Below, one piece after another: positions 44,704 to 62,067 of a stretch of DNA of 64,000 nt. Source of the DNA: an uncultured Flavobacteriales bacterium (GTDB taxonomy: Bacteria > Bacteroidota > Bacteroidia > Flavobacteriales_D > Parvicellaceae); assembly GCA_943788755.1 (NCBI GenBank), contig CALSRM010000002.1, positions 279,505 through 343,504 on the forward strand, in the 5' to 3' direction. The notes beneath the pieces are model-generated. The model saw only the letters and a list, made by a program, of their open reading frames with translations, was not told the DNA's origin and did not search any database. How positions within the stretch are numbered: position 1 is the stretch's first letter; every line of letters begins with the position of its first letter. The translations under genes and the position numbers were made by a program.

Positions 44704-47365
44704 TTTAAAATTGCGCAACTAATTTTAAGTTCAATCTTCTAGAAGTCAGAAAACTTGGAATAGCATATTGTCTTCCGGATACATCTTTTACCCAATTATA
44801 GTTTATTGTATTGGAAATGTCTAGAAGTTGAATACCTCAAATGAGAGCCACATTTTATCAATTTTTTTCCATAAAGAACCGTCTTTGTATTTTGTTTTGT
44901 CTGTCAAAAGTTCTTTACTAAACCCAATATCAACTCTTTTGTAAAGAGATGATCGCAAGGTGTCTTTGTATCTGTCTTGACCCGGAGGTCCGTAGGGCAG
45001 GGCTGTGCCGAATACAACAGTTAAATTAACTTTTAATGTGCTCCATTTTACTTTTTCAGTATTCCATTCTTCTGGCATTCTGTCTTGAAAAAATAGCGCA
45101 AAAGATACCCGCTGGTCTGAAGGTCTTGGGATATATCCAGGTTCTGTTCGAATACTATCGGTAGCAACATCGTTAGCAGTAAATCCAGCAACGATTTCTT
45201 CTCCATCAGAATTATAATAATCATAAAAATAATCATCCAAAATATCCTCCTGTGTTTTCATGTAGGATAAGGAAGCGTAGGATTCAATTCCTTTGACAAA
45301 TTCACCGTTAATTTTTAAGTCAATGCCAGTAGCATATCCTTTAGCGTTGTTTTCGCCATAATAACGAATTCTAACGTTATCAATTTCATAAGGAATAATG
45401 TCGGTTAAATGTTTGTAATATGTTTCCGCGCCTAATTTAAAAGGTCTTTTCCACATAAAGAAGGTGTAGTCACTTCCCAAAACAAAGTGTATAGATTTCT
45501 GCGCTCTTATTTCAGGGTTGATTACTCCTTGAAGATTTCTAGTCTCTCTATAAAAAGGAGGCTGATAATAAAAACCAGTGGCAAAACGAAAGCTTACATT
45601 TCGTCTATAAATTTCATCGTCACGAACATAAAACCATGCAGGGCGAAAATTGAAACTAATTCTTGGCGAAACTACCAATTGGCTATTGTAGTCCCAGTAA
45701 TTTGCTCTTACACCGCCTGTCATACTGAAATAACTATTTGTTTCAATGGTGTCTTTTATACTGTATGTGCTGTCTTTTGCTCTTACTGAATCTTCGAAAT
45801 AAATGGTTTTTGGAATTGATATCCGATACATATCTTGAATGTATCCAGAAAGGCGATTGGATTGTAAATCATTTTTGGACTTAACAACATTACTTAATGT
45901 AAGGTATTGGTATGGCTGCGCTGTTGGATCAACGTAGCCAGCAGAATCTTGTGGATGAGGGATGTTAAAACGAGAAGAATCAATCTGATTCCATTCACTA
46001 ATTTTATCATTTATTATTTCATGTTGGTACTTCGCCTCCCCATTGAATTTTATGTTTTCCTGATTTAAAAGTCCCTTTATGGTAAATATTAGCTACAGTT
46101 GCGTTCAATTCATTTCGTGCATGATTTAAAAATGCGCCAACTCCTCTATTAAAAGCAACTTCACCGAGGTCGTCATTACCTAAATCTCTTTCTAGTTCAT
46201 CTAACTTATATTCACCCAATAGATCAAAACTTTCTGTTTCGTGCGTTTGGTAAATAGAGGAAATAAACTTTAAAGTGAGCAACTCATTTGGTTTATGCGT
46301 TAAAGAAGCTGCTGCCATATAGGTTTCAAACTGCGTAATTTCTTGCCCCTCGTAAAAAACGGTAAATCGCAGCGCTTCATTGATACTTCCAAAATTTGTT
46401 TCTCTACTTTCTGGAACAACTCTAAATTTGTTTTTAGAATAGGTTCCAAAGATGGAAAGCTTTGTCTTTTCTGTTAACAGGAAGTTGAACATACCTTGGT
46501 AATCCACAAATATAGGTTTGTATTCTCCTTTCGTGTCTAATGCTCCTAATAGGTAGGAGTTAGTTCTGTATCGAATCCCAGTAATATAGTTAAATCGAGA
46601 AGATACGTTTTGTTCAACATGGGCAGCAGCTCCTAGTAAACTAGAAGTAAAAGTACCTTTAAACTCATCTGGAGTAGTGGCTTCAGAATAAGTGATGTCC
46701 AAAACTGAAGAAAGTTTATCTCCATATTTGGCATCAAACCCACCTGCAGAAAAAAGGATATCACTTACCATGTAGGGGTTAATGAAACTCAACCCTTCTT
46801 GTTGTCCGGAACGAGCTAAAAAAGGACGGTAGACTTGAATGTCGTTGACGTATATTAGATTTTCATTGAAATTTCCTCCACGAACATTATATCCAGCAGA
46901 AAGTTCATTGTTTTGCGAAACTCCAAAATTTCCAAACTTTAAGGTTTGTTCTATATTTTCACCGATTCCAGTTATTTCTGAAGGAGGGATTGGCTTGAAA
47001 TATCCAATGGCTCCAGTTCCGGGGTCTTTGAACGTTACTATATGTTCTGAGAAAGTTCTTGAATTCAGTGTAACTCTAACCTCTTTCGTCTCATTTGCAA
47101 ACAATGTATAAGTTGATTTCTTGCTCCAGTATTGTGCACTGCTATATTTTATAGTAATTTTTTCATTCGCAGGAACTGTGATACTGAATTTTCCATTTTG
47201 GTCGGTTACTGTACCTCTTGATGTTCCTGTCAGAACAATATTCGCATCCACTACAGGTTCTTCGAATTGATTGTAAAGAGTTCCCTTTAGTGTAGCGGTG
47301 GTTTGTGCACTAATTTGAAAAGCAGAAATCAGCAGGAAAATAAAAATGGATAAGGAAATTTTCAT
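44704..47365 (-). pseudogene. TonB-dependent receptor gene broken by two frameshifts
   Basis: Conceptually one receptor of about 885 residues. Signal peptide (1-20), carboxypeptidase-regulatory-like domain (about 25-105), plug domain (about 120-230, with IENIEQ-like GENIEQTLKF and GGNFNENLIYVNDIQVYRP) and the barrel. After HKIQWGGE the frame is lost at about 46030 (GAAGTAC, one extra base). The downstream frame continues YQHEIINDKISEW without interruption to FEVFN, then a base is missing at about 44824, where the expected LLD becomes F-stop. The last frame reads ISNTINYNWVKDVSGRQYAI to LKLVAQF and TAA at 44704-44706, the expected family end. The intact parts are 46019-47365 and 44821-46029. 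Confidence 0.88.
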
Positions 47366-47377
47366 GTATCTGATTGA

Positions 47378-48097: not shown

Positions 48098-48125
48098 GAA
48101 GGATTTCTAATAATAAAGATCAAGT

Positions 48126-49178
48126 ATGTATAGAATATTATCTCTAGTTTTTCTTTTTCCTTTGTTTTATACAGCACAAATAACTATTTCAGATACAGAT
48201 ATGCTGCAAAGTGGTGAAATGTATTTTTATAGTTCAAGTCCAGATTTTTTATTGGTAGATGTGTCTTTGACAGGAGCAAATTACTCTTGGGATAATTCTG
48301 CACTAACTGTTTTAAATCAAGATACATTGAATGCAGTTAACGTTACTTCAACTCCATTTGCGATATCAATTGTATTTTAATAATATTGCTCAATATCCTG
48401 ATCATAAGGCAGATTATGCTTTAGTGGTAGGACAAGAAGTAGATGCCTTTGGGCAAATCACAATTTCGAGCGTGTATGATTATTTTAAGGTTGATTCAAA
48501 TTCTCTACAAAAAGTAGGTTTTGGAGCTAATATAAATGGACTTCCAGCATCTGTTAAATATGATACAATAGATCGAGTTTATCCATTATCTATGACATTT
48601 GGTACAACTGACTCGACATCTGCATATTACATTTTAGCTATTCCAACTTTGGGGACATATGGGCAATGGATTAGGCGTAAAGTTGAGGTTGACGGCTGGG
48701 GTAATATTACAACTCCTTATGCTACTTATTCAAATACAATTAGGGCTAGAACTACTTTATATCAGAGGGATACCTTATATGTAGACCAGTTTGGGTTTGG
48801 AACCAATATCGATAGACCGATAGAAAACATTTACGAATGGTTTGAGCCAGGGAGTGGGGTTCCGGTATTTAAAGCTATAGAAAGTTCGGGTGCATTAACC
48901 GCAATCAAATATTTGGATACAATCAATACTACCTCGGTAGAAAGTCAATTTTACAGCGATTGGAAAGTTTATCCTAATCCTGTTGTAAACATTTTGAACG
49001 TTGAAATTGGAAGTGAGTTTACGTATGAAATTTACGACATTGAAGGTAGGTTAGTCGAAAAAGTAGATAATTATTTGTCAGAAACGATTGAACTCGGTCA
49101 CTTAGCAAAGGCGGTGTTTATACTTTTTTAGTAAAGACCGGAGATAAACGCAAGAGTTATAAGCTCGTGAGAAAATAA
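48126..49178 (+). pseudogene. Secreted protein with type A T9SS sorting domain, two frameshifts
   Basis: Conceptually about 350 residues: signal peptide (1-17, ending FYTAQ), an uncharacterised beta-rich domain, and a type A sorting domain (YPNPVVNILNVEI, YEIYDIEGRLVEKV, GGVYTFLVKTGDKRKSYKLV). At about 48360 (TTTGCGATATC) an extra base moves frame; the first ORF stops at 48380 while the next frame carries on from YQLYFNNIAQYPDHKADY. At about 49104 (GCAAAGGCGG) one base is missing, so the second ORF stops at 49131 instead of continuing GGVYTFLVKTG to TAA at 49176-49178. The two visible ORFs are 48126-48380 and 48331-49131. Confidence 0.85.
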
Positions 49179-49200: not shown

Positions 49201-49885
49201 TTATAAATGCCTTAAAATTCCATTTTCAAAAAGGGCTAAAAATGAGGTTCGAACACCCGCAATTGTTAAAGCATCGTTTGTCCAAGTATTGCAAGTCCTG
49301 AATAGGTAGTAGCTCCCTTTAGCCTCATAAAAATTGTCCTTAGAATTGTATCCAACATTGGGGATTAATTGTGGCGTCATGTCTGGTTTTATCACAAATG
49401 ATTGCTTAATAAACCCAATTAATTCAGTGTATTTTTCTTTTGTAATAACACATCTTTTAAGGCTTTGGTTTTCAATAGGTTTTCTTGAGGAAATAAGTAA
49501 CATGCATGGCGGTTGAGCTGGGTAGAAAAGCCGCATTGATAGCTGCTGAAGCTTTGAGGTCACTCCATGATGGAGTGTCTAGAAAGAAGCCTTTATCACC
49601 CCATCCAATGGATATAAATTTAGGACTTTGTTTGATACCTCTGAAGGTTTTAGTATCAATAAACTCCGTCCATTTAATTAAAGTAGTTTCCACCGGAAGA
49701 CATACATCTGTATGAATACCATTAGAAGTGACGAATATTTCAATTTCCCCATTTTCAGGATTATAGTCCGTGTTTATAGGGAAGGATGCCCCGATTAGTG
49801 CAATCGTTAAATAGGTGCTTAGAAACAAGAGAATTACCTCTAAGAATAGAAGTATAAAAGAGAGCGTTTTGTTAAAAAAAGTCAT
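49201..49885 (-). pseudogene. DUF2459-like exported protein, one frameshift
   Basis: Two overlapping frames make one protein of about 227 residues. The first (49885 to 49472) has a transmembrane leader, then VTSNGIHTDVCLPVETTLIKWTEFI and ISIGWGDKGFFLDTPSWSDLKASAA, a DUF2459-type pattern, and ends AMHVTYFLKKTY-stop. The second frame (49563 to 49201) resumes IENQSLKRCVITKEKYTELIGFI and runs to a normal end with YLFRTCNTWTNDALTIAGV. A single extra base near 49476-49490 (minus strand, AAAACCTATTGA) accounts for the break. It converges on the broken type A cargo gene. Confidence 0.8.
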
Positions 49886-50185
49886 TCTAACAATAATACG
49901 AAAAATAACTTTGAGGTTGGGATATGTGTTTTGGGCCCGAAAAGGATATTGTAAGTTTAGAAAGTAAGAAGTTGATTAGTTTTATTCCAGCAAGGTTCCT
50001 TTAAATATTTCAATAAGCTTAGTATTACATTTCCAGCAATAATTATATTTGCAATATCACCAATGTATATGCTTTGACTTTATTTTAATATTTCTAAATT
50101 CATTTAACGTATCAATTCTGAAAATGGATTTTAGCCAGCGCAACATTCATTTAATTATTTCGTTACTTTTGATGCCAAATCAGCT
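49886..50185. other. Intergenic region with promoter for the glycosyltransferase gene
   Basis: A 300-base gap between divergent genes. The only recognisable site is the -7 box TACTTTTG at 50164-50171, 14 bases before the ATG at 50186. No ORF or repeat was noted. Confidence 0.4.
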
Positions 50186-50908
50186 ATGACACAGAAATTA
50201 TCTATTTTAATTCCAGCCTATAATGAAGGAAAAACCATTCACTTAATTTTAGATAAAGTGAAAGCCGTTAATCTTTTAAATGACATTCAAAAAGAAATTA
50301 TTATAATAAATGATTTTTCTACGGACGATACTGTCGCTGTAATAGAGAATTATCAAAAGCAGAATCCAGAAATGGGAATTCGTTTATTCAGTCAAGAAAT
50401 GAACAAAGGCAAAGGAGCTGCAATTCACAAGGCAATAGAGTTGGCTACAGGCGATTATTTAATAATTCAAGATGCTGATTTAGAGTACGACCCTATAGAT
50501 TATAATGATGTGCTAAAACCAGTTGTAAATGGCTTTGCAGATGTGGTTTATGGGTCGAGATTTATTGGAGGGAATCCTCATAGAATTCTATTTTACTGGC
50601 ATTCTAGAGGAAACAAGTTTTTGACTAATTTATCTAACATGCTTACCAATTTGAATTTAACAGATATGGAAACTTGTTACAAATTGATACGAACAGATAT
50701 TGTAAAAGGACTAAACCTGAAAGAAAGCCGATTTGGTTTTGAGCCTGAATTAACAGCAAAATTGTCTCGTGTAAAGGATATTCGTATTTTTGAAGTTGGA
50801 ATTTCATATTATGGGAGAACTTATGAAGAAGGGAAAAAGATTGGCTGGAAAGATGGTTTTAGAGCCATCTACTGCATTATGAAATATAATATTTGGAGTA
50901 GGAAATAA
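50186..50908 (+). CDS. Family 2 glycosyltransferase (dolichyl-phosphate mannose synthase-like)
   Basis: A 240-residue GT-A glycosyltransferase. Motifs: ILIPAYNEGKTI, INDFSTDDTV, the DxD-type IIQDADLEYDP, VVYGSRFIGG, GFEPELTAKLS and SYYGRTYEEGKKIGWKDG, which together fit the DPM1/polyprenyl-phosphate glycosyltransferase subgroup. It has no transmembrane segment, so acts at the cytoplasmic face. It stands alone. Confidence 0.9.
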   Translation: MTQKLSILIPAYNEGKTIHLILDKVKAVNLLNDIQKEIIIINDFSTDDTVAVIENYQKQNPEMGIRLFSQEMNKGKGAAIHKAIELATGDYLIIQDADLEYDPIDYNDVLKPVVNGFADVVYGSRFIGGNPHRILFYWHSRGNKFLTNLSNMLTNLNLTDMETCYKLIRTDIVKGLNLKESRFGFEPELTAKLSRVKDIRIFEVGISYYGRTYEEGKKIGWKDGFRAIYCIMKYNIWSRK

Positions 50909-50930
50909 TCTCCATGCTCAAAAGTACTGA

Positions 50931-51149
50931 CCGCATAGTATTTTAGAGTCCGTAAAAGATGGAATGAATGCAAGTTTGATTTCCTTTAACAGCGACAAAA
51001 CAAAGATGAGTTATGTTGCTAAATATGTATTTTCAATTTGTCAATTACCAATGCAAGAACAACATCAAAAATTAAAAGAAACCTTTGCCAACTGGAAAAG
51101 GGAAGTGGAGAAGGTAGATGATGTGAGTGTGATAGGTTTTAGAATATAA
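50931..51149 (+). pseudogene. Relic of a SpoIIE/PP2C-type phosphatase gene
   Basis: An open frame after a stop at 50928 reads PHSILESVKDGMNASLISFN, then DKTKMSYVAKYVFSICQLPM, and ends EVEKVDDVSVIGFRI-stop. DGMNASLISFN matches the DGMD(I/A)xLxSI strand of SpoIIE-type phosphatases, and the EHLKxxFxxWKxxxxxxDDVxVIGxRI-like ending matches their C-terminus in Bacteroidota. In intact proteins these two are separated by roughly 100 residues holding the second metal-binding half, so the fragment is both 5'-truncated and internally deleted. It lies 3 kb upstream of siaB-siaC. Family from memory; the fragment nature is clear from the sequence. Confidence 0.6.
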
Positions 51150-51608
51150 GCCTGTCAAAGCTGGTGATTAGTTAAAATATAGATTCATCACTGCGTTTTG
51201 TATGATAAATGAATTTATCGCCAAACATAGTTCTGAATGACTAAAAACATTTTCTGAATGATAAAAAAAAGTATTGTTCTGAATTACACAAAATTCATCG
51301 CTTTAATGACAAAATAAACATTGCCAGCAGAATGTCATTCAGAACGGTATTTTACTGAAAATTTATTTTCAACGTAAAATGAAGCAATGAATCTTTTGTC
51401 GATAAAACTAATGTTGGAATGATTAATCAAAGTTGGTAGTCAAGTGCAATTAAATTATTCCAATTCCCGTAGTCAAAAGCAAAAATAAAATTATGCGAAT
51501 ATTTATAACCTTGTCCTTAGCTGCATATGCTCAGACGAGAGGTATTTATCACTACCATTTGGTTTCTGCGGCTTTAATTGAAATACTGGATAAGGCAGGT
51601 TGTAATAC
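51150..51608. repeat. Gene-free stretch with short repeated motif
   Basis: A 459-base AT-rich region. The ten-mer TTCTGAATGA occurs at 51231 and 51252, a one-mismatch copy at 51277 (TTCTGAATTA), and its reverse complement at 51336-51345. A 43-codon ORF at 51493-51624 (begins MRIFITLSLAAYAQ) runs into the end of yebC and is unlikely to be real in this form. The stretch may be a decayed locus next to the phosphatase relic. Confidence 0.4.
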
Positions 51609-52316
51609 TTACCCCATTGAATGATAGACATTCTGAACGTCTTCGTCATCTTCAAATTTTTCTATAAGTATTTCAACTTCAGCTTCCTGCTCTTCTGATA
51701 GTTTGGTGGTGTTGCTTGGTATTCTATCAAATCCTGAGGATAGAATTTCATATTTTTTGTTTTCCAGCTCTTTTTGGAGTGATCCAAAATTTTCAAAAGA
51801 ACCATAAATCATTATATTCTCATCATCTTCAAATACATCTTCAGCACCATAATCAATCAATTCAAATTCTAATTCTTCCAAATCGATTTCTCCTTTAGGG
51901 ATGCTGAAGTGGCAATTTTTTTCAAACATGAATTCTACGGAGCCTGAAGTGCCCATGTTACCTCCATTATGTGTGAAATAATTCCGCATACTGGCCACTG
52001 TTCTGTTGTTGTTGTCTGTTGCTGTTTCTATTAGAATTGCAATACCGTATGGACCGTAACCTTCAAATAATATTTCTTTATACTCGGAAGTGTCCTTGTC
52101 GATAGCTTTTTTTATCGCTCTTTCAACATTTTCCTTTGGCATGTTAGCAGTCTTTGCATTTTGCATCACTGCTCTTAGTCTCGCGTTTGTTTCGGGGTCA
52201 GATCCACCTTCTTTAACAGCAATTACGATGTCTTTTCCGATTTTAGTAAAGGTTTTGGCCATTTTAGACCACCTTTTCATCTTTCTTGCTTTTCTAAACT
52301 CAAACGCTCTTCCCAT
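51609..52316 (-). CDS. yebC: YebC/PmpR-family protein
   Basis: A 235-residue YebC-family protein. It opens MGRAFEFRKARKMKRWSKMAK, then GGSDPETNARLRAVMQNAKTANMPKENVERAIKK, YEGYGPYGIAILIET-like segment, NRTVASMRNYFTHNGGNMG, and an acidic C-terminus (EQEAEVEILIEKFEDDEDVQNVYHSMG). Family members are transcription regulators and, in some cases, translation factors relieving ribosome stalling at proline runs. Normal length, single gene. Confidence 0.95.
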   Translation of the reverse strand: MGRAFEFRKARKMKRWSKMAKTFTKIGKDIVIAVKEGGSDPETNARLRAVMQNAKTANMPKENVERAIKKAIDKDTSEYKEILFEGYGPYGIAILIETATDNNNRTVASMRNYFTHNGGNMGTSGSVEFMFEKNCHFSIPKGEIDLEELEFELIDYGAEDVFEDDENIMIYGSFENFGSLQKELENKKYEILSSGFDRIPSNTTKLSEEQEAEVEILIEKFEDDEDVQNVYHSMG

Positions 52317-54245: not shown

Positions 54246-54803
54246 ATGATCGACGTTTTTGGTCTTTATAATAACATGGAAAAGAATGATATATTACTGT
54301 CGTTCAAAGGGACTATCACTTCTGAACTTTTGACATCAGTTCTTCAAATTATGGAGAATAAGATGGAAGATTTGAATGAAGCTCCCAAAACCAGAAAAAA
54401 GGTTTTTAATGTCTTAGTAGAGTGCCTTCAAAACTTATATCATCATATTGATGATTTTGAAGTTAAAGGAACTAAAGAAGAAATTTCAAAAAAGAAGTCT
54501 GCAATTTTCATGATTAGTCGTCATGATGAGCATTACAATATTATTACGGGTAATTTTATAGCTAATGAAAATATTGAGAAGTTAAAAGGAAGAATAGATC
54601 ATATAAATACTTTGGAAAGAGAAGAGTTGAAAGCCTATTATAAATCTACCCTTAACAATGGAGAGATGAGCTCTAAAGGGGGAGGAGGATTAGGTTTTAT
54701 TGATATAGCAAAAAAATCAGGTCAGAAATTAGTATATGATTTTATGGAAATAGACGAAGAATATTCGTTTTTCACATTAATAGTAAAAATAGTACAAAAA
54801 TAA
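54246..54803 (+). CDS. siaB: SiaB-family protein kinase
   Basis: A 185-residue protein of the SiaB family, a GHKL-related kinase that phosphorylates SiaC in the SiaABCD signalling pathway described in Pseudomonas. Landmarks are LLSFKGTITSELLTSVLQIME, the EN-helix-like RKKVFNVLVECLQNLYHHID and the glycine loop NGEMSSKGGGGLGFIDIAKKSG. A second ATG ten codons in (MEKNDILLSF) could be the true start. It is followed seven bases later by siaC. The SpoIIE phosphatase (SiaA) and diguanylate cyclase (SiaD) expected for a full pathway are not next to it. Confidence 0.85.
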   Translation: MIDVFGLYNNMEKNDILLSFKGTITSELLTSVLQIMENKMEDLNEAPKTRKKVFNVLVECLQNLYHHIDDFEVKGTKEEISKKKSAIFMISRHDEHYNIITGNFIANENIEKLKGRIDHINTLEREELKAYYKSTLNNGEMSSKGGGGLGFIDIAKKSGQKLVYDFMEIDEEYSFFTLIVKIVQK

Positions 54804-54810
54804 ATTAGAA

Positions 54811-55185
54811 ATGGATAATTTAACAATTGAAGGATCAGCAAAAACACCAACTGTTGAGTTTGAAGGTGTAGGTAAACTTTTAATAAAAGGTCGTTCTATA
54901 CCAGAAAATTCAATAGAATTTTATAAGCCAGTTATTGATTGGATTGGAAAATACGGAGGAGCACCAAAAGATATTACAGAAGTAAATGTCCAATTAGAGT
55001 ATTTTAATACAAGTTCTTCTAAGTGTATCTTAGATGTTTTCAAAAAATTGGAAACTTTGTCTGGTACTGAGGTTAAAGTTAACTGGTATTATGAAGAAGA
55101 TGATGAAGATATGTTAGAAGCTGGTGAGGATTACCAAGCAATTATAGATCTTCCATTTAAAATGATTGAAGTAGAAGAGCTTTAG
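54811..55185 (+). CDS. siaC: SiaC-family regulatory phosphoprotein (DUF1987)
   Basis: A 124-residue protein. SiaC family signatures: TPTVEFEGVGKLLIKGRSIPEN, FYKPVIDWI and VNVQLEYFNTSSSKCILDVFKKLE, the last holding the Thr/Ser region that SiaB phosphorylates and the phosphatase resets. In Pseudomonas SiaC switches a diguanylate cyclase. It is co-transcribed with siaB. A strong terminator follows. Confidence 0.9.
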   Translation: MDNLTIEGSAKTPTVEFEGVGKLLIKGRSIPENSIEFYKPVIDWIGKYGGAPKDITEVNVQLEYFNTSSSKCILDVFKKLETLSGTEVKVNWYYEEDDEDMLEAGEDYQAIIDLPFKMIEVEEL

Positions 55186-60837: not shown

Positions 60838-61294
60838 TTTTGTAAAAATAATGAATTAACTATAACTTTCTGAACCCCGGTAAAATCAGGAGTCTTATTC
60901 GATTATTTTATAAGGTAAATGGGATAAGTTTCCTGCTCCATGATTGTTATATGGACTTAGGCTAGTAGGTTTTTATAATGCAGAGAGAAAAGTGGATAGA
61001 AATAACTAAAGGAATAGACTTTGAAGGGTAGTTCTAATAATTCATTCGTATCAAAATTCACAAAGCTTTTTAGAGACAATGAAAATTTCATTTTTCTATC
61101 TGGATAATAATATGAAATTTGAAGTAGTATATGAAAAACTATGCGAAACCCGTTGGGAACAAAGACAACAAACAATCTGACTTCGTTAAACTATTTTTAA
61201 ATAGCGAATCCTATTCAAAAATAGTTACGCCGCGCATCTTATTAATTATCTTTGTTTTTTCAAAGAAATGAATTATTAGAACTCACCTTAAGAT
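60838..61294. promoter_or_regulatory. 457-base gene-free stretch upstream of mazG
   Basis: It holds the hairpin at 61189-61226 and a perfect -7 box TATCTTTG at 61247-61254, 40 bases ahead of the mazG ATG. A minus-strand ORF at 60957-61175 and a 33-codon plus-strand ORF near 61079 have no recognisable features. No RNA gene was seen. Confidence 0.45.
61189..61226. repeat. Long near-perfect hairpin upstream of mazG
   Basis: AACTATTTTTAAATAG and CTATTCAAAAATAGTT form a 16-base stem with one mismatch and a six-base loop (CGAATC). It is not followed by a T run and lies 20 bases ahead of the mazG -7 box, so it looks like an operator or cruciform rather than a terminator. Confidence 0.55.
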
Positions 61295-62067
61295 ATGAAT
61301 ACAGTGGAACAAAAGTTGAAATCGTTTGAAAGGCTACTCACCATAATGGATAAGTTGCGAGCAGAATGTCCTTGGGATAAAAAGCAAACATTAGAATCTT
61401 TGCGTTACCTAACGATTGAAGAAACCTATGAGTTAGCGGATGCCATTTTGGAAAAGGATATGGAGGAAATCAAAGGGGAATTAGGAGATTTGATGCTGCA
61501 TATGGTGTTTTATTCTAAAATAGCTTCTGAAACTAACGACTTTGATGTTGCGGATGTACTCAATACGGTATGTGATAAATTAGTGGAACGTCACCCGCAT
61601 ATATATGGAGATGTAGTTGCAGATACAGAAGAAGCGGTAAAATTAAATTGGGAGAAAATTAAATTGAAAGTTGGTAGAAATCTGTTTTGGAAGGTGTGCC
61701 TAAATCTTTACCTGCCATGGTCAAGGCTACTCGTATTCAAGAAAAAGCAAGGGGGGTAGGGTTTGATTGGGACAACAAAGAGCAAGTATTCGAAAAAGTA
61801 AAGGAAGAGTTTTCAGAATTGCATGCAGAAGTTGAATTAAATGATGCGACAGCCATTGAAGACGAATTTGGAGATGTATTGTTTTCTATGATAAACTATG
61901 CTCGTTTCGTTGGTGTTAATCCGGAGATGGCATTGGAAAGAACCAATAAGAAATTTATTAGACGATTTCAATACTTGGAGACCGAATCAAAAAAAGATGG
62001 AAAAGAAATGGGGGAAATGACACTGAATGAAATGGATGAATATTGGAATAAAGCTAAGAAATTATAG
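61295..62067 (+). pseudogene. mazG: Nucleoside triphosphate pyrophosphohydrolase MazG, one frameshift
   Basis: Conceptually about 257 residues with both MazG domains. The first frame (61295 on) has LTIMDKLRAECPWDKKQTLESLRYLTIEETYELADAI, an EEIKGELGDLMLHMVFY motif with the metal-binding Glu/Asp set, and ends by reading NLFWKVCLNLYL-type nonsense after VGR. Adding one A to the AAA run at about 61678-61680 restores VLEGVPKSLPAMVKATRIQEKARGVGFDWD and the second domain with EIEDEFGDVLFSMINYAR-like metal site, ending NKAKKL. MazG hydrolyses aberrant nucleoside triphosphates. As the gene is broadly conserved, a sequencing error is as likely as true loss. Confidence 0.85.

Follow-up and report, generated by a model that had tools for sequence, protein, structure and literature searches.

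Is a short SpoIIE-type open frame close to a siaB-siaC pair the remainder of the phosphatase that once served this pair, or a scrap of some other SpoIIE gene? The question arose from a locus in DNA of an uncultured Flavobacteriales bacterium, the whole 64,000-nucleotide stretch analysed being referred to here as the window (Table 1). An excerpt of PMC7647112 states that, in P. aeruginosa, the phosphorylation of SiaC at Thr68 is set by SiaA and SiaB; SiaA of the SiaABCD system carries a PP2C-type phosphatase domain and is drawn there as having a HAMP and a PP2C domain besides two membrane spans. Measured against SiaA as given in that excerpt, the fragment keeps only parts of the PP2C domain. 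Residue Thr67 of the window's SiaC, found in its YFNTS motif, was taken as the putative equivalent of Thr68, an assignment made without alignment.

Table 1. Features around the SpoIIE-type fragment, with positions in the window
Feature	Position	Strand	Remarks
Variable slot	49830..51592	.	No counterpart in the three genus mates; holds the glycosyltransferase gene and the fragment
Family 2 glycosyltransferase	50186..50908	+	Directly upstream of the fragment
SpoIIE-domain fragment (relic)	50931..51149	+	72-codon open frame, lacks the sensor part and the larger share of the catalytic domain
First piece, ESVKDGMNASLISFNSDKTKMSYVA	50946..51020	+	Model positions 112-136 of the 249-position SpoIIE HMM
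Second piece, KYVFSI...DDVSVIGFRI	51021..51149	+	C-terminal 42 residues and stop; model positions 208-249
Dispersed intergenic repeats	51156..51426	.	Downstream of the fragment; more copies on C1 and C2
YebC/TACO1-family gene	51609..52316	-	Bounds the slot on the right; genus mates 96-97% identical
SiaB-like protein	54246..54803	+	DUF6272, PF19788 (1.3e-44)
SiaC	54811..55185	+	PF09345 (1.2e-39); YFNTS motif, Thr67

Composition of the fragment

The HMM used to recognize SpoIIE domains was built from those of the genome's own paralogs (ORFs of at least 120 aa, the fragment being left out) and comprised 249 positions. Against this model the fragment scored 51.1 bits, in two collinear SpoIIE/PP2C pieces that correspond to the KDGMDAS strand and to the C-terminus of the family. 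Between them 71 model positions (137-207), equivalent to 71 to 76 codons, were absent, which bears out the preliminary description of a phosphatase strand joined to the family C-terminus with the middle missing. This internal deletion is in frame. Model positions 1-111 and everything upstream of them, sensor included, were absent as well. The frame is bounded by a stop codon at 50928 and by the TAA at 51147, and its first ATG, at 50964, opens an ORF of 61 codons.

The fragment was found only by the HMM made from close paralogs; it was not detected by the general Pfam model PF07228 at the family cut-off. Two other Pfam matches, HNHc_6 (0.027) and Cas_Csd1 (0.078), were weak, below their cut-offs, and were rejected. 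No unrelated family, the kind of match named in the preliminary description as speaking against a SpoIIE origin, reached its cut-off. The top pairwise match in the own genome covered residues 21-72 of the fragment (E=4e-14). For the first piece, the ungapped BLOSUM62 score with the own 1102-aa paralog was 66, while the best of 500 shuffles reached 42 when compared with the C-terminal 260 residues of 21 SpoIIE ORFs; at the DNA level the result was weakly significant, with 29 of 2000 shuffles equally good. Aligning the fragment without gaps to the final ~66 residues of the domain, a reading that would imply no internal deletion, limited the identities of the first part to D, G and K. This reading was rejected, since it is the KDGMDAS region to which the first piece corresponds, with 13 of 25 residues identical to the own 1102-aa paralog (by visual count) and 19 of 22 to a 711-aa protein of the genus mate G001.

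The acidic motifs, i.e. the D in DSTGHG, TDGF and DDV, are what we take to be the metal sites of PP2C enzymes. DDV is the sole survivor of the three in the fragment, and since the other two are lost, and with them most of the active site, the fragment should be catalytically dead. The SpoIIE (PF07228, PP2C-type) phosphatases with TPR or Reg_prop/Y_Y_Y sensors share with it the KDGMDAS strand, the C-terminal DDVxVIG region and a clade with support 1.0. It differs from them by having no sensor, no VNADSTGHGVPGA motif and no TDGFQDQ motif, and by falling below Pfam detection. Descent from a SpoIIE gene, as a pseudogene, was apparent in that intact members are collinear with the fragment while essential parts have been lost from it.

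Relatives of the fragment and the slot bounded by the DUF2459 and yebC genes

Searching 40 related genomes at the DNA level uncovered an intact relative in G001 (C10:483-2618), which encodes the 711-aa protein mentioned above, a TPR-SpoIIE fusion. The gene displayed 88% DNA identity to the first piece over 66 nt (50955-51020) and 72% to the second over 103 nt, and the 228 nt that separate the two matched stretches are absent from the fragment. The first piece was also close to a 908-aa Reg_prop/Y_Y_Y-SpoIIE of G019 (C86:21-2744; 19 of 25 residues identical). The second piece was most like the 1102-aa Y_Y_Y-SpoIIE type, with 61-63% identity (26/41 in G002). When both pieces were taken together, 43 of 67 residues were identical to the G001 protein and equally 43 of 67 to the G019 protein, and 39/67 and 38/67 to the 1102-aa type of G002 and of the own genome, respectively. 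In a tree of 40 SpoIIE rows, the fragment grouped with the G001 and G019 proteins and the own 1102/1072-aa proteins with support 1.0, its placement within this clade being poorly supported (0.70-0.86).

The first piece is nearest to the TPR type of G001 and the second scores highest with the Y_Y_Y type, so that neither type stands out as the single parent. The own 1102-aa gene was rejected as sole parent, the G001 and G019 genes matching the first piece better. No full-length ortholog of the 711-aa protein was found among the own genes, whose best full-length matches to it were 43-46% identical. The G001 gene was likewise rejected as a syntenic ortholog at the window site, because its neighbours map to the own C3, where the corresponding place is occupied by a 453-aa gene. 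Within the fragment's clade, catalytic SpoIIE domains 73-94% identical were observed behind different sensors, TPR in one and Reg_prop/Y_Y_Y in the others (the G001 and G019 genes above, and G000 C1:133290 and C3:768979, G000 being the own genome), which suggests that sensors may have been swapped among these genes.

The fragment lies in a slot whose flanks are conserved in three genus mates (85-89% DNA identity), with a DUF2459 gene on one side and yebC on the other. Its content elsewhere is a 506-aa gene whose TPR matches are weak (G002 and G003) or about 170 bp (G001). The preliminary description had proposed to look for a SpoIIE gene at this place in relatives, and none of the three genus mates has one: searching all frames of at least 25 aa by HMM without speed filters gave nothing up to E=0.1. 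The identical scan picked up the window's fragment as well as the two control genes. Neither an intact SpoIIE gene nor a deletion intermediate was seen at the exact site in the genomes compared.

The glycosyltransferase upstream of the fragment was 84% identical to a protein from another genus and 48-49% identical to its best homologs in genus mates, which are placed elsewhere. On account of these identities an exchange at the slot is suggested; for the glycosyltransferase itself, either exchange between genera or differential loss is likely. A single inherited cassette composed of glycosyltransferase and fragment was unsupported, and no SpoIIE gene was found beside 29 other glycosyltransferase loci (flanks of up to about 1.5 kb each). 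The repeats downstream of the fragment, which make up much of 51156-51426, are ~60-90 nt long and occur in partly complementary forms, with further copies at G000 C1:66286-66538, C2:124134-124227 and C2:354186-354853. Those at C2:354.2-354.9 kb flank an ORF for a 99-aa GIY-YIG nuclease (L197:1971-2270).

SpoIIE genes and siaB-siaC pairs

The pair (54246-55185) lies 3.1 kb from the fragment and, as the preliminary description had it, has no SpoIIE gene beside it: both members were recognized by Pfam, and the SpoIIE HMM found no other SpoIIE within the 64-kb window. The named SiaC records nearest to the window's, among the matches listed, came from Cryomorphaceae, Crocinitomicaceae and other Flavobacteriales metagenome genomes. 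The family of the fragment presumably belongs to the same broad class as the PP2C-type domain of SiaA.

A search of the whole genome, also recommended at the outset, did reveal SpoIIE phosphatases in number, with 21 PF07228 matches, 20 of them above the cut-off and two representing adjoining pieces of one broken gene. Proximity of ~3 kb to one of them is therefore weak evidence. The same genome has nine SiaC matches above the cut-off plus a degraded one, and five DUF6272 matches at four places. SpoIIE genes occurred within 5 kb of siaC at two of the nine loci: a siaB-siaC-7TMR-SpoIIE cluster on C1, and a split Reg_prop/Y_Y_Y-SpoIIE gene directly after siaC on C3. The latter consists of two overlapping frames (L035 1743-4412 and 4342-4923; G000 C3:1748242-1751422). 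The degraded SiaC match (G000 C3:1239727-1240059) contains five stop codons and is likely a siaC pseudogene.

The survey of other genomes included the best 80 SiaC loci among the matches listed, of which 46 were flanked by 5 kb or more in each direction. Within this sample siaB was a nearly constant neighbour, lying within 500 bp of siaC at 77 of the 80 loci. A SpoIIE gene was found 0.2-2.3 kb from siaC at 11 of the 80, and within 5 kb at six of the 46 well-flanked loci, leaving 40 without. None of ten loci where, as in the window, a cytidylate kinase gene follows had a SpoIIE gene in the sequence covered, several of these loci being short-flanked. In G002 the siaBC pair is syntenic with that of the window and has no local SpoIIE gene.

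The siaC-linked genes were also placed in the tree. Nine of the 11, located 1.5-1.7 kb from siaC, formed a separate clade (support 0.99) apart from the fragment, and that of L141 fell into a third group. The SpoIIE gene of L124, 227 bp from siaC, belonged to the wider group holding the fragment's clade (0.97), and that of L148, 5.1 kb from siaC, was sister to this clade (0.93). The fragment, unlike what is expected of a SiaA-type partner, thus stood outside the clade of SpoIIE genes from nine of the 11 SpoIIE-bearing SiaC loci, and no SpoIIE gene was found at the corresponding site in the three genus mates.

By itself the fragment matters little: where about twenty SpoIIE genes are present, remnants are to be expected. 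The useful part is negative: because 40 of the 46 sampled SiaC loci have no SpoIIE gene within 5 kb, nearness to siaBC is weak evidence of partnership here. If the SiaC proteins of such pairs are reset in the Pseudomonas manner, the phosphatase must usually be encoded elsewhere or shared. The window's SiaC would presumably be reset by a SpoIIE phosphatase encoded elsewhere, and the products of most siaC genes in the genome are likely to be served in the same way. The single siaB-siaC-SpoIIE cluster on C1 could help to test where the SiaC phosphatase is encoded.

Origin of the fragment and competing explanations

Very probably the fragment is the functionless remainder of a further gene for a SpoIIE-type (PP2C) phosphatase, seemingly without any particular link to the SiaB-SiaC pair nearby; we regard it as a pseudogene scrap of the ordinary kind, lying in a variable slot. 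Either a SpoIIE copy or a portion of such a gene would have entered the DUF2459-yebC slot in the present lineage, after which the sensor, the in-frame internal block and the greater part of the catalytic domain may have been deleted, leaving a sequence that would now have no function. Differences between the fragment and its nearest intact copies were commonest at third codon positions (9/4/16 against G002); much of the divergence is therefore expected to have arisen while the gene was whole, and the codon pattern fits a gene that would have diverged intact and decayed later.

The preliminary description had suggested another possible origin, in which the fragment would be what is left of a former SiaA-like partner of the pair. 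The short distance and the lack of a second SpoIIE gene in the window agree with this, as do the 11 loci with closely placed SpoIIE genes, the cluster on C1, and the position of the L124 and L148 genes near the fragment's clade. It is contradicted by synteny, however, since none of the three genus mates has a SpoIIE gene at the site and the syntenic pair of G002 does without one. The scarcity of SpoIIE genes at well-flanked SiaC loci, their absence from the sequence covered at the ten cytidylate kinase loci and the different clade of nine linked genes tell against it as well, and we give the old-partner origin scarcely any credence. A working small protein encoded by the 61-codon ORF, e.g. a C-terminal decoy titrating a SpoIIE dimer or substrate, would agree with a frame that stays open across an in-frame deletion (72 open codons are expected by chance with a probability of 0.0016, given the base composition) and with the third-position bias. 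Yet a conserved short ORF, named beforehand as an observation that would count against a relic, was not found in 60 related genomes (E<=1e-12), where matches were limited to long SpoIIE genes and one stub in G003. Moreover, amino-acid-changing codon differences outnumbered silent ones against all five relatives compared (15 to 7 against G002), contrary to ten intact pairs, in which changed codons were at most as many as silent ones, and WKGD, identical in the five relatives, reads WKRE in the fragment. A working small protein is accordingly very unlikely, and a newly made one, derived from a SpoIIE tail and acting as a decoy on the many SpoIIE phosphatases of the genome, slightly more so.

An assembly error might also have produced the deletion or the join. 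Residual indel errors are suggested by the fact that four of 14 compared window genes are frameshift-split yet have an unbroken counterpart in one or more genus mates. The loss of 71 codons and of the whole upstream gene goes beyond small indels, however, and the segment lies inside a contig of 389,572 bases in an assembly of five contigs, so that we consider such an artefact highly improbable. The frameshift-split genes themselves (48117-49175, 44824-47374, 49204-49915 and 61292-62064) reflect either assembly indels or real decay.

Comparable remnants were encountered outside the window. In the sister species G003, a 58-codon C-terminal SpoIIE stub (L106 1498-1674, C11) is all that survives at its locus of the ortholog of the 1102-aa SpoIIE gene, adjoining tRNA-Pro and tRNA-Ser genes, and its neighbours are the same as those of the own 1102-aa gene. 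It resembles the fragment in being a C-terminal remnant of the same clade, but differs by its position beside the neighbours of the 1102-aa gene instead of in the yebC slot, and by having no internal deletion. It is either a parallel SpoIIE remnant or a misassembly. In the own genome, tandem SpoIIE paralogs occur at G000 C1:513-517.6 kb (L022), the second of which is broken near its end, with the last part in another frame.
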